A DNA stretch of 64,000 nt from Rheinheimera pacifica (GTDB lineage Bacteria; Pseudomonadota; Gammaproteobacteria; Enterobacterales; Alteromonadaceae): assembly GCF_900108485.1 (NCBI RefSeq), contig NZ_FNXF01000002.1, positions 124,001-188,000 of the forward strand, given 5' to 3'. Below the pieces are notes generated by a model. It worked only from the letters and a program-made list of their open reading frames with translations. It did not search any database and was not told the DNA's origin. Within the stretch, counting starts at the first letter, position 1. The number at the start of each line of letters is the position of its first letter. Positions 29,321 to 52,377 of the stretch are shown piece after piece. Both the position numbers and the translations under genes were made by a program.

Positions 29321-29359
29321 CTGACATTGCCGGCCGATTGTTGCTATCTCGCATAGAGA

Positions 29360-29456
29360 GAATCGGCTTGCTCTAAACCAACCGTTGCAGGCCAGGATGG
29401 CCGAATCGAGCCTACAGGGATGTATTTACGGCGTGTTGGTGTGAGCAAGCCGGTTC
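29360..29456 (+). repeat. Structured 97-bp intergenic repeat, copy A
   Basis: The terminal arms GAATCGGCTTGCTC (29360-29373) and GAGCAAGCCGGTTC (29443-29456) pair with one G-U. Inside are a CCAAC/GTTGG closing helix, hairpin 1 GGCCAGGATGGCC, and hairpin 2 with TAC/GTA around an AGGGAT loop followed by TTTACGG. The core is almost identical to copies B and C while the arms differ and keep pairing. It lies between the two chitinase genes in sense orientation, within the probable 5' leader of the second. Confidence 0.85.
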
Positions 29457-29495
29457 GACCTGCAGCAACCTGCGGCATTTTCCGGGAATACCACT

Positions 29496-45828: not shown

Positions 45829-46809
45829 ATGAAATATCCTGTGTTTTTTCTGCTATTACTGCTTGGTGGCTGCGAAAAACTGACATCAACGCCACCGTTG
45901 CAACAATTTCCGCATGTAGCACAAGGTAGCTACGCCGCTGCTCTGTCAGATGATGGCCGCTACAGTGCCGTATCGTCAATTCAGGATGGCGTGGCGTTAT
46001 GGGATTTGCAAACGAATGCATTAAAATACCAGTGGAAGCATCAGGACAGCGCTGAAAACCTGGTGTTTAGCCTGGCTATCAGCAATAACAACAGCCATGT
46101 ACTAACGGCCGATCAAAATACTTATGCGTTATGGCAGCTTAGTAACGGCGAAAATGTCGGGTTTTGGCAGTTAGACGCTGCCACGGTACGTGATGTCGCA
46201 GTGTCGGACAACGGCGCGCATTTACTTATTGGCAAAAGCAATGGTGGTGTACAGCATATTACGCTGGCATCAGGCCGGCGGCTGGAGTTTTTGGGCCATA
46301 CCGAGCGCATTAATAGTGTGGCCATGTCGCCCAATGGCCGTTATGCCCTAACCGGCGGCAATGACTACAAAGCACATTTATGGGACACACAAAGTGCGCA
46401 AATTTTATATAGCTTTAGCCACCCCAGCCGGGTAACCAAAGTAGCGCTGGACCCGCAAGGCCGCTATGCCTTTACCGCCGACAGTCAGGATTTAGCCCAG
46501 ATTTGGGACATTCAAACCGGCCAGTTAGTCAGTGCGTTAAAATTTGTCGCACGCCAGCAAATATTCAGTGCAGTGCGCTTTAGCCGTGATGGTAAATATC
46601 TGGCCACCGGCGCCCCGACGCGCAAACTGGCATTATGGGATGTACAAAGCGGCCGCGAGTTACAGCAGTGGCAAGTCGGCGTAAAACCTGACAGCCGTCC
46701 GCCCAGTGCGGTAGTGCATGCGGTTGCCTTTTTAACAGATAATAAGCTGATAAGCGAAAGCTCCAGTGGCATAGCCGAAGTATGGGAGATAACACATGAC
46801 ACCAAGTGA
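45829..46809 (+). CDS. WD40-repeat lipoprotein
   Basis: This 326-residue protein has a short lipoprotein signal (MKYPVFFLLLLLGGC). About six or seven WD40-type beta-propeller repeats follow, with typical WD/GH pairs (GVALWDLQTNAL, YALWQLSNGENV, AHLWDTQSAQIL, AQIWDIQTGQLV, LALWDVQSGREL, GIAEVWEI). It is an envelope protein-interaction scaffold of unknown partner. Two in-frame alternatives (45805, 45811) would add a charged leader; the signal peptide favours 45829. It overlaps slyX by 14 bp. Confidence 0.85.
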   Translation: MKYPVFFLLLLLGGCEKLTSTPPLQQFPHVAQGSYAAALSDDGRYSAVSSIQDGVALWDLQTNALKYQWKHQDSAENLVFSLAISNNNSHVLTADQNTYALWQLSNGENVGFWQLDAATVRDVAVSDNGAHLLIGKSNGGVQHITLASGRRLEFLGHTERINSVAMSPNGRYALTGGNDYKAHLWDTQSAQILYSFSHPSRVTKVALDPQGRYAFTADSQDLAQIWDIQTGQLVSALKFVARQQIFSAVRFSRDGKYLATGAPTRKLALWDVQSGRELQQWQVGVKPDSRPPSAVVHAVAFLTDNKLISESSSGIAEVWEITHDTK

Positions 46810-47023
46810 GCAGGAATTACAGCTGCATATTGTTGAGTTAGAGAGCAAGCTGGCGTTTCAGGAAGATACAGTAAACAGCTTAAGCAATGAATTGCTCGAG
46901 CACCAAAAACGCATAGACCGGCTGGCGCAGCAGGTAATGCTACTGGCCGAAAAACTACGCAACCTGCCGGACGATCAGGGTATATTGCGGCCGGAGGAAG
47001 AGCCACCACCGCCGCATTATTAA
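46796..47023 (+). CDS. slyX: SlyX family protein
   Basis: This 75-residue protein is a coiled coil (about residues 6-55, VELESKLAFQEDTVNSLSNE), ending in a Pro/Glu-rich tail (EEEPPPPHY), as SlyX proteins do. Its function is unknown. It is translated from an ATG in the end of the WD40 gene and lies near fkpA, as in other gammaproteobacteria. Confidence 0.88.
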   Translation: MTPSEQELQLHIVELESKLAFQEDTVNSLSNELLEHQKRIDRLAQQVMLLAEKLRNLPDDQGILRPEEEPPPPHY

Positions 47024-47042
47024 GTTATTAGTCTATCTGAGA

Positions 47043-47139
47043 GAATAGGGTTGCTCTAAGCCAACCGTTGCAGGCCAGGATGGCCGAATCGAGCCCCCAG
47101 GGAAGGGTTTACGGCGTGTTGGTGTGGGCAACCCTGTTC
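47043..47139 (+). repeat. Structured 97-bp intergenic repeat, copy B
   Basis: The arms GAATAGGGTTGCTC and GGGCAACCCTGTTC pair, and 2 further bp (GA/TC) extend the stem to 47041-47141. The core has hairpin 1 GGCCAGGATGGCC and hairpin 2 CCC/GGG around AGGGAA. It lies between slyX (plus) and yheV (minus), in the 3' part of the slyX transcript. Confidence 0.88.
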
Positions 47140-47163
47140 TCGCAAAGTTTAACCTTGCTTACG

Positions 47164-50123: not shown

Positions 50124-50450
50124 TTATTCTATTGCCAGATACTGCAGTTTATCCGGTACACCATTCCAGGTGTCAGCATCTGTTGGCGCCGGTTTTACTT
50201 CGCGGATATTTGGCCACAGCGCGGCCAATTCGGCATTTAGCTGAATAAAGCCGTGCTGCTCTGCCGGCACTTTATCTTGCTGCACTATCGCATTGGCCGG
50301 GCATTCCGGCTCGCATAAGCCGCAATCAATGCAAATAACCGGATCAATTGCCAGAAAGTTGGGCCCTTCAAAAAATGCATCTACCGGACATACCGCTACG
50401 CAGTCGGTGTATTTGCATTTTATACAGTTATCCAGCACCACAAAGGCCAT
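50124..50450 (-). CDS. fdxA: 7Fe-8S ferredoxin
   Basis: This 108-residue ferredoxin has the FdxA cysteine arrangement: [20 protein letters not shown] for the first cluster and [17 protein letters not shown] for the second. A C-terminal extension follows ([21 protein letters not shown]), as in Azotobacter-type ferredoxins. It is a small electron carrier. AGGAA precedes the start codon. It is divergent from the COG2509 flavoprotein, with repeat C between them. Confidence 0.93.
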
Positions 50451-50536
50451 AGTGTATTGGTTCCTAATGTTTCAGGCTGGCGATCATACTGCAGCGCTGT
50501 AAAAAAACAACTATCTGCCAACCCGGATTTAAGTGA

Positions 50537-50633
50537 GAACAGGTTTGCCCTAAACCAACCGTTGCAGGCCAGGATGGCCGAATCGAGCCCCCAGGGACGG
50601 GTTTACGGCGCGTTGGTGTGGGCAAACCTGTTC
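50537..50633 (+). repeat. Structured 97-bp intergenic repeat, copy C
   Basis: The arms GAACAGGTTTGCCC (50537-50550) and GGGCAAACCTGTTC (50620-50633) are perfectly complementary. The core has GGCCAGGATGGCC and a CCC-AGGGAC-GGG hairpin, and is otherwise almost identical to copy B. It lies in the leader of the plus-strand flavoprotein gene. Confidence 0.88.
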
Positions 50634-50775
50634 GTATCGAAGCTCACAGACAGACTTTTCTGCATGACTGCCACAAACGAATACGGACAATGCCTCAGGC
50701 TTGGCGTAAAATAGCCTCTATCTTGTGAGCTGCCCGCCTGTTGCTGTGCAGCAATGACACCGATTTGGAACCCCT

Positions 50776-52377
50776 ATGCTGCGCCTGACCGAAATAAAAC
50801 TGCCGTTAAACCATGACGAAAATGCCCTAACTGCCGCCATTATTGCCAAACTAAAACTAAAACCAGAGCAGCTGCACAGTTATACGGTATTTAAACGTGG
50901 CTTTGACGCACGCAAAAAAACCGATATCCAGCTTATTTACACGCTGGATATTGAGGTGGATAACGAAGCAGCTCTGCTGCACACCTTTGCCAAAGATCAG
51001 CATGTAAAACCATCACCCGATACCAGTTATAAATTTGTCGCGCAGGCTCCGGCCAGTTTAACCGAGCGGCCCATTGTGATCGGCCTGGGCCCCTGTGGTT
51101 TATTTGCTGGCTTGATTTTGGCACAAATGGGCTTTAAACCGATTATTTTAGAACGCGGCAAAGAAGTACGTGAGCGCACCAAAGACACCTTTGGTTTTTG
51201 GCGCGGTAAAGAGTTAAACCCCGAGTCAAACGTGCAGTATGGTGAAGGCGGTGCCGGTACCTTTTCTGACGGTAAACTGTACAGCCAGGTAAAAGACCCT
51301 AAGCATTATGGCCGCAAAGTCATGAGCGAGTTTGTCGCAGCCGGTGCACCGGATGAAATTATGTACGTTAGCAAGCCACATATCGGCACCTTTAAGCTGG
51401 TGGCGATGGTGGAAAAAATGCGCGCCACTATTATAGAACTGGGGGGCGAGATCCGCTTTAGCAGCCGCGTTGATGAGCTGCATATCGACGATGGCCAGCT
51501 TACCGGGTTAACACTGGCCAGTGGCGAGCGGCTAAACAGCCGCCACGTGGTGCTGGCCGTAGGCCACAGCGCGCGCGATACTTTTCAGATGCTGTATGAC
51601 AAAGGCGTGTATGTTGAAGCCAAACCGTTTTCTATCGGCTTTCGGATTGAACATGAGCAATCGATGATTGACGAATGCCGCTTTGGCCCTAACGCCGGTA
51701 ACCCGATTTTAGGCGCTGCTGATTATAAATTAGTGCACCATTGCAGCAATGGCCGCAGCGTTTACAGCTTTTGTATGTGCCCCGGCGGTACTGTGGTAGC
51801 CGCTGCGTCAGAACCCGGCGGCGTGGTTACCAACGGTATGAGCCAGTATTCACGCCACGAGCGTAATGCCAACAGCGCTATTGTCGTCGGCATAGACCCG
51901 GAGCGTGACTACCCCGGCCACCCGCTGGCCGGTATTGCGCTACAGCGTAAGCTGGAGCAGCAGGCATTTAAACTGGGCGGAGAAAACTACTTTGCGCCGG
52001 CGCAGCTGATTGGCGACTTTCTGGCCGGCAAACCCTCTACCGAGCTTGGCGATGTCAAACCATCTTATACACCCAATATTACGCTAACTGATTTAACCCA
52101 GTTACTGCCGGAGTTTGCTGTTACTGCCATGCGCGAAGCCATACCGGCATTTGATCAACAAATTAAAGGTTTTGCCAAAGCAGACGGTTTATTAACCGGC
52201 GTAGAAACCCGCACCTCGTCGCCCATTTGCATTAAACGCGGCGCCGATTATCAGAGTATTAACGTCAAAGGCCTGTATCCGGCCGGTGAAGGTGCAGGCT
52301 ATGCCGGCGGTATTTTATCCGCCGGTATCGATGGCATTAAAGTAGCCGAAGCAGTAGCCCTGGCGATGCTGGGCTAA
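50776..52377 (+). CDS. NAD(P)/FAD-dependent dehydrogenase of COG2509 type
   Basis: This 533-residue flavoprotein has an N-terminal ~95-residue domain (LPLNHDENALTAAIIAKLKL, YTVFKRGFDARKK). A FAD domain follows with VIGLGPCGLFAGLILAQMG, then YGEGGAGTFSDGKLYSQ and CMCPGGTVVAAASEPG. The C-terminal KGLYPAGEGAGYAGGILSAGIDGIKVAEA is typical of FAD-dependent proteins of this family, whose substrate is not established. It is preceded by repeat C and ends 7 bp before the convergent diguanylate cyclase stop. Confidence 0.85.
   Translation: MLRLTEIKLPLNHDENALTAAIIAKLKLKPEQLHSYTVFKRGFDARKKTDIQLIYTLDIEVDNEAALLHTFAKDQHVKPSPDTSYKFVAQAPASLTERPIVIGLGPCGLFAGLILAQMGFKPIILERGKEVRERTKDTFGFWRGKELNPESNVQYGEGGAGTFSDGKLYSQVKDPKHYGRKVMSEFVAAGAPDEIMYVSKPHIGTFKLVAMVEKMRATIIELGGEIRFSSRVDELHIDDGQLTGLTLASGERLNSRHVVLAVGHSARDTFQMLYDKGVYVEAKPFSIGFRIEHEQSMIDECRFGPNAGNPILGAADYKLVHHCSNGRSVYSFCMCPGGTVVAAASEPGGVVTNGMSQYSRHERNANSAIVVGIDPERDYPGHPLAGIALQRKLEQQAFKLGGENYFAPAQLIGDFLAGKPSTELGDVKPSYTPNITLTDLTQLLPEFAVTAMREAIPAFDQQIKGFAKADGLLTGVETRTSSPICIKRGADYQSINVKGLYPAGEGAGYAGGILSAGIDGIKVAEAVALAMLG

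Follow-up and report, generated by a model that had tools for sequence, protein, structure and literature searches.

Elements A, B and C, which lie in a 64,000-nucleotide stretch of the Rheinheimera pacifica genome (the window), are probably copies of a mobile, retained RNA element with several CsrA sites, whose fold works as RNA and whose binding by CsrA is predicted. Selection on RNA structure is supported in a far larger set of copies. The shape of the RNA is kept while its letters change, so the element probably does something for the cell.

Results

Three copies in the window

The first-pass annotation reported three copies of 97 nt. These are real, and equal the 101-nt copies described here less two bases at each end. 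Their parts are as follows.

29358-29458, + strand: copy A, short form, with a same-strand GH18 chitinase gene on either side
29358-29373/29443-29458, + strand: closing stem of copy A
29377-29387/29429-29440, + strand: second stem of copy A
29390-29402, + strand: hairpin 1 of copy A, GGCC-AGGAT-GGCC
29413-29424, + strand: hairpin 2 of copy A, TAC-AGGGAT-GTA, based on covariation and missing from the centroid fold of A
47041-47141, + strand: copy B, short form, 3′ of slyX (46796-47023) and facing a small predicted gene on the - strand
47073-47085, + strand: hairpin 1 of copy B, loop AGGAT
47096-47107, + strand: hairpin 2 of copy B, CCC-AGGGAA-GGG, based on covariation; the minimum-energy fold uses another register
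50535-50635, + strand: copy C, short form, in the gap between divergent genes
50124-50450, - strand, and 50776-52377, + strand: neighbours of copy C, a ferredoxin gene and a gene for an FAD-dependent protein, respectively
50567-50579, + strand: hairpin 1 of copy C, loop AGGAT
50590-50601, + strand: hairpin 2 of copy C, CCC-AGGGAC-GGG, based on covariation, with the other register in the minimum-energy fold

The three copies align without gaps over 101 nt, and the matched substitutions reported earlier are present in this alignment (our closing-stem pair number is the earlier arm position plus 2). Pair 10 (arm position 8) is C-G in A, G-C in B and T-A in C; pair 7 (arm position 5) is C-G in A and A-T in B and C; pairs 6 and 15 (arm positions 4 and 13) alternate between wobble and Watson-Crick pairing; and hairpin 2 has TAC/GTA in A versus CCC/GGG in B and C. 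A 17-nt core pattern, allowed up to three mismatches, was found three times in the window, each time exactly, compared with 0.10 occurrences expected by chance, and the + strand folds of A, B and C lie 5.1-5.3 sd below those of dinucleotide shuffles. A pattern search of the 4.46 Mb source genome gave seven close copies, whose arms are imperfect in part (pair 10 is non-standard in three of the seven).

Rfam assigned no family to the window copies at gathering or permissive thresholds, and seven loci from the same genome gave no match on the element up to E 5. A sub-threshold Pyrobac-1 match in locus L004 falls outside the element. Copy C has no match in plasmid or phage collections at E 1e-3, which gives carriage by either no support. 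At window 50124-50776 it adjoins a ferredoxin gene (Fer4 + DUF3470) of the fdxA type. According to excerpts of PMC9788540, the fdxA-rsmZ order is conserved in Pseudomonas, and CsrR2 adjoins a ferredoxin gene in Alcanivorax. This neighbourhood common to copy C and rsmZ/CsrR2 is an odd coincidence; copy C is not rsmZ, because site C is empty in several relatives.

A branched fold with covarying stems

The fold is closed by a long stem, followed by an internal loop and an 11-pair second stem that has one bulge; this leads to a junction carrying two hairpins. The closing stem, second stem and hairpin 1 agree among minimum-energy folds of the + strand of the seven close copies; the register of hairpin 2 varies, and its pairing (TAC/GTA versus CCC/GGG) was taken from covariation. 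The long closing stem also forms when A, B and C are folded as reverse-strand RNA.

In a plain, gap-free alignment of the seven copies (A3), 14 of 34 pairs show changes on both sides, compared with 5.7 +/- 1.7 after shuffling of the 3′ letters and 0-2 with slid partners. A larger alignment (A4; 66 rows, 60 distinct), whose counts lean towards the covariance model because it was fitted to it, has both-side changes in 29 of 34 pairs, with 94.6% of cells pairing; none of 500 shuffles reached the observed covariation, and slid partners gave at most 46.3% of cells and 19 pairs. Amid these variable stems the junction letters AGC(C) and TT.AC.GCG are conserved class-wide in at least 75% of rows, a conservation not needed by CsrA binding alone.

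GGA loops as candidate CsrA sites

Both hairpin loops keep (A)NGGA, mostly as CANGGANG, the type of the published CsrA/RsmA site. Across four genomes, hairpin 2 carries ANGGA in 171 of 172 distinct copies, the odd row having an over-long loop. Of 134 short forms (the 38 long forms were kept separate), 86 have ANGGA at hairpin 1 and 48 have another NGGA there. Stems vary and the loops persist in more distant rows, which were found with a model that itself includes the loops: ANGGA occurs in 30 (loop 1) and 30 (loop 2) of the 32 rows that represent further genera of the order, and in 27 and 31 of 31 rows from the class. GGA is absent from one class row at hairpin 1 and from one order row at hairpin 2, and CA.GGA.G occurs twice in the consensus rows.

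Excerpts of PMC7652899 give the CsrA SELEX consensus as RUACARGGAUGU, in mostly six-base loops on short stems, and state that a CsrA dimer bridges two sites 10-63 nt apart with an optimum above 18 nt. The GGA motifs of the element likewise lie in the loops of short hairpins, and in A, B and C they occupy element positions 38-40 and 61-63, a spacing of 20 nt that falls within this range. Hairpin 2 of copy A, taken with the preceding base, fits the consensus at 11 of 12 positions.

The source genome has a csrA gene. Across the class, csrA was found in 60 of 65 carrier genomes and in 252 of 304 others (p = 0.06; hand-read counts, uncorrected for kinship), and among genomes at least 90% complete in 53 of 54 carriers versus 226 of 260 others (p = 0.016, also uncorrected for kinship). 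Five of the 65 carriers show no csrA; one of them is 98% complete, and two are inferred from absence among the listed positives. We regard this co-occurrence as weak evidence. In P. putida, pull-downs with Rsm proteins recovered intergenic sequences next to a transposase and its putative insertion sites, one of these sequences being termed a long palindromic region (excerpts of PMC7937890); as described there, they are a precedent for the present element.

Spread across the Gammaproteobacteria

Covariance model R1, built from the seven close copies, gave 48 matches in the source genome at E <= 1 (150 of 541 candidates scored), A, B and C being three of about 48 copies there, and matched all 31 of 31 genus genomes, with 8 to 61 matches each at E <= 0.01. 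Under strict filters, model R2 detected the element in 83 of 394 genomes of the order, representing 22 of the 114 genera, and in 65 of 369 genomes of the class, representing 58 of the 272 genera sampled; copy counts at both levels are lower bounds, because at most 10 or 11 candidates were scored per genome. A pattern scan of GTDB returned at least 118 stretches. Among the matches listed are Rheinheimera, Arsukibacterium, Marinobacter, Stenotrophomonas, Halopseudomonas, Aquisalimonas, Cellvibrio, Nitrococcus and others, and many are metagenome assemblies.

Two forms and exchange at sites

The element occurs in a short form of about 100 nt and a long form of about 170 nt. Thirty-six distinct long copies (150-180 nt, four genomes) contain an extra module, some 69 nt long, whose additional hairpins carry GGA in or at the loop, and long forms hold 4 to 8 GGA per copy. 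In the single long form that was folded, the two added hairpins form and hairpin 1 is absorbed into a longer arm. A similar 69-nt module lies inside several subtypes (for example L069, 1489-1658), as if moving or recombining on its own.

Short and long forms are both present at 27 of 72 shared sites. At site B, the source genome (G000) and G010 carry a short copy, G015 carries a long, partly masked copy with the same arms, and G005 and G021 carry a different, reversed copy; G024, whose flank is 96% identical, has no copy there, nor do others. In G004 (L124), the 215 nt shown for site B contain no element, and another intergenic hairpin there has an AGGGA loop on the reverse strand. Site C spans the same range of empty, short, long and reversed states. 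The block that separates filled from empty sites, about 140 nt at B and about 170 nt at C, exceeds the coverage of the model, and neither of these two comparisons shows a clear target duplication. Presence and absence differ between close species at both sites compared. The family is mobile, since copies come and go between close species and short and long forms are exchanged at the 27 sites. Within each of three distant genomes, of which 9, 7 and 4 copies were read, the copies have arms in common, with matched changes, again pointing to mobile units. A 43-nt remnant at L076 1501-1543 has matched closing arms without the core and lies 3′ of a gene.

A REP-type Y1 transposase was not found in 4 of the 31 genus genomes, which still carry 18-47 copies, and an element lies within the 1.5 kb flanks of 1 of the 30 Y1 transposase loci examined (56 listed). 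Both observations argue against a REP-type transposase as the mover.

Position relative to genes

Position was assessed for most listed copies of four genomes and the best-scoring part of six more, with the surrounding genes called by a simple in-house gene caller. Most copies lie 10-40 nt 3′ of stop codons; in the four genomes an upstream sense stop lies 10-40 nt away in 50 of 68 cases, and a downstream antisense stop in 46 of 59. The 126 distinct sites divide into 44 tandem sense, 32 tandem antisense, 42 convergent and 6 divergent, with 2 unassigned. At tandem sites the + strand is not significantly more often sense than antisense (44 versus 32, p = 0.21). This speaks against a general cis-regulatory role towards the sense neighbour and makes one on host mRNAs doubtful. 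T-runs follow the element at 2 of 102 sites on each strand, compared with 5.1% of background windows, and this lack of excess gives an intrinsic terminator no support.

Eight copies fall within 16 kb of the source genome (G000:C29:373605-389499; L070, L074), where 0.17 are expected, a cluster noticed post hoc. They include three doublets whose members lie 24-50 nt apart in opposite orientation, their 5′ ends facing, and copies at several sites of the region, doublets among them, recur in relatives. The genes of the region, read from their translations without a family search, appear to serve branched-chain amino acid and acyl-CoA catabolism.

Resident copies are constrained, probably as + strand RNA

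Change in place was measured between same-site copies across genomes, with both flanks required to match. The ten-genome set comprises 257 copies and 243 copy pairs at 72 sites; 25 of the 243 pairs, with at least 10 pair differences, were dropped as likely replaced copies. At 60 sites the arms changed at 102 of 1911 bases (0.053 per base) and the adjacent 15 nt at 268 of 1772 (0.151), so arms at shared sites change at about a third of the rate of the DNA next to them; the corresponding counts are 151 of 4142 for the core and 858 of 7654 for farther flanks. The four-genome set (57 shared sites, 34 used for rates) gives 33 of 1088 changes in arms versus 88 of 1013 in the adjacent 15 nt (p = 2e-8). 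The structure is kept while a copy is resident.

Read on the + strand over pairs 3-27, changes in the ten genomes comprise 74 G-U, 20 A-C, 28 other single and 18 both-side changes. Polarised from a Watson-Crick majority, they comprise 27 G-U, 10 A-C, 11 other mismatches and 10 double changes (p = 0.008). The G-U:A-C ratio is 22:6 in sense, 27:8 in convergent and 5:2 in divergent contexts, and the excess is still 18:3 at antisense sites, both of whose neighbours are encoded on the opposite strand. In the four genomes it is 34 versus 10 (6 versus 5 polarised), and in arms minus the wobble-rich pairs 6 and 15 it is 28:16 (p = 0.096). The + strand is the strand under constraint, a result that is firm overall and thin in the strictest subsets. 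An excess of G-U over A-C on one strand is not expected from a DNA palindrome or from palindrome-correcting mutation. The earlier reading of the copies as showing selection on RNA structure rather than a plain repeat can therefore be divided: covariation in 29 of 34 pairs, slower arms and the G-U excess uphold the structural half, and "rather than" must give way to "as well as", the element being a mobile repeat too.

The chief rival is a purely mobile DNA hairpin of the REP/MITE kind, which would fold only for single-strand transposition, present its GGA loops as a transposase signal and be of no use to the cell. We consider this unlikely. The dispersal of the copies, their presence or absence between close species at the two sites compared and the non-significant sense preference fit such a hairpin, and G-T pairs are tolerated in single-stranded DNA also. 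The location 3′ of stop codons, in unidirectional and convergent gaps, is likewise that described for REPs. Selection for transposition, however, does not give resident copies that change three times more slowly than their surroundings, and the genomes with many copies in which no REP-type Y1 transposase was found, the single one of 30 transposase loci near an element and the want of a clear target duplication at the two sites compared also count against it. We give still less credence to a hairpin at the 3′ end which, whatever its orientation, terminates transcripts or protects mRNA against exonucleases; the proximity to stop codons and the closing stem formed by the opposite RNA strand of the three copies folded would suit it, but T-runs show no excess, and the conserved GGA loops, the junction and the long form are left unaccounted for. 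Palindrome-correcting mutation, in which template switching within the hairpin yields matched changes without selection, could lower net change and create double changes in arms that are near-perfect palindromes, but is very improbable, as it restores Watson-Crick pairs blind to strand, against the 74:20 (27:10 polarised) seen here and against pairs 25 and 26, which stay U-G at 100 of 102 and 89 of 99 sites.

Kinship with known families

The closest known family is TwoAYGGAY RNA (RF01731), with which the element has in common a closing stem that is long, two loop-bearing hairpins in a junction, and CAUGGAUG-type loops. In excerpts of the sources, PMC2864571 counts TwoAYGGAY among the probable RNAs, from human gut, gammaproteobacteria and Clostridiales, and PMC4333381 matches it to the CsrA motif and proposes CsrA binding. 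The RF01731 model aligns to a distant copy of the present element, and its consensus has part of the junction letters (AG ... CGG, CGUC). Among 369 class genomes, 23 have an RF01731 match at E <= 0.001, 15 of them above cut-off, and 13 of the 23 hold more than one match. R2 matches 4 of 15 RF01731 loci at E <= 0.1, two of them strongly; loci L497 and L502 lie above the RF01731 cut-off (55.0, 44.6) and have an R2 match at the same place (50.7, 49.6).

The window copies gave no match at the RF01731 gathering cut-off of 43 bits, and are not assigned as members of RF01731 because this Rfam score failed. Their loops are AGGAT and AGGGA(T/A/C); AYGGAY is present in other copies. Twenty distant loci of the present family gave one RF01731 match, below cut-off. 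The RF01731 consensus shown is without the long-form module, and mobility, 3′ location and in-place constraint find no mention in the excerpts of PMC4333381 and PMC2864571. From the two strong R2 matches and the common junction letters we read the present element and TwoAYGGAY as a putative superfamily, of which the present element would be a distinct branch; no description of this branch as such was found in the partial texts of the open-licence literature searched.

Searched against Rfam up to E 1, the twenty distant loci gave seven matches, namely the one to TwoAYGGAY, five to Ysr224 and one unrelated. The Ysr224 (Yersinia sRNA 224) matches, in L267, L275, L292, L297 and L312, are weak, full-length, on the opposite strand and far below cut-off; Ysr224 may be the antisense of a relative. 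Two microRNA matches were taken as matches to a long hairpin.

The sponge RNAs CsrB/CsrC/RsmX/Y/Z are sRNA genes at single loci. They too have several GGA hairpins, whereas the present element, for which CsrA binding is predicted, occurs as dozens of short dispersed copies. Rfam gave no match to these sponge RNAs in the window or the seven loci of the same genome. REP/BIME, ERIC and other bacterial MITEs are likewise dispersed intergenic palindromes, mostly 3′ of genes, and mobile; ERIC forms with internal inserts exist. The present element differs in being longer, branched, constrained on the + strand and not tied to Y1 transposases; at 101 nt it exceeds the 20-40 bp palindrome given for REP in the source abstract. 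Its shape also invites comparison with integron attC sites.

Discussion

Binding of CsrA is most likely the work of the element. The palindromic closing stem and the second stem would support a junction that bears two hairpins in the short form and more of them in the long. The dimeric regulator CsrA/RsmA would recognise the GGA of the loops, which mostly has the CANGGANG setting. With its GGAs 20 nt apart on the junction, one dimer could bridge both hairpins. As non-autonomous repeats, the elements would enter the regions flanking the 3′ ends of genes and be exchanged and lost over time, resident copies being kept as + strand RNA structures. Dozens of copies might then act together as a distributed sink for CsrA, offer it local sites on passing transcripts, or both. 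We favour the sink over local control of individual neighbours, since copies are free in their orientation and + strand constraint holds at antisense sites too. Transcription, CsrA binding and an effect on genes are what we infer from these features.

More tentatively, a mobile RNA across much of the Gammaproteobacteria may seed dozens of multi-site CsrA platforms per genome, with copies domesticated in place and recombination between short and long forms retuning a distributed CsrA buffer, a possible bacterial counterpart of regulatory SINEs. If true, an obscure candidate RNA type (TwoAYGGAY-like) would become a large, mobile, class-wide family under selection as RNA. Existing CsrA/Rsm pull-down data would be open to re-reading for the element, and CsrA regulation would gain a layer, dispersed and evolvable, which a search aimed at single sRNA genes could miss.
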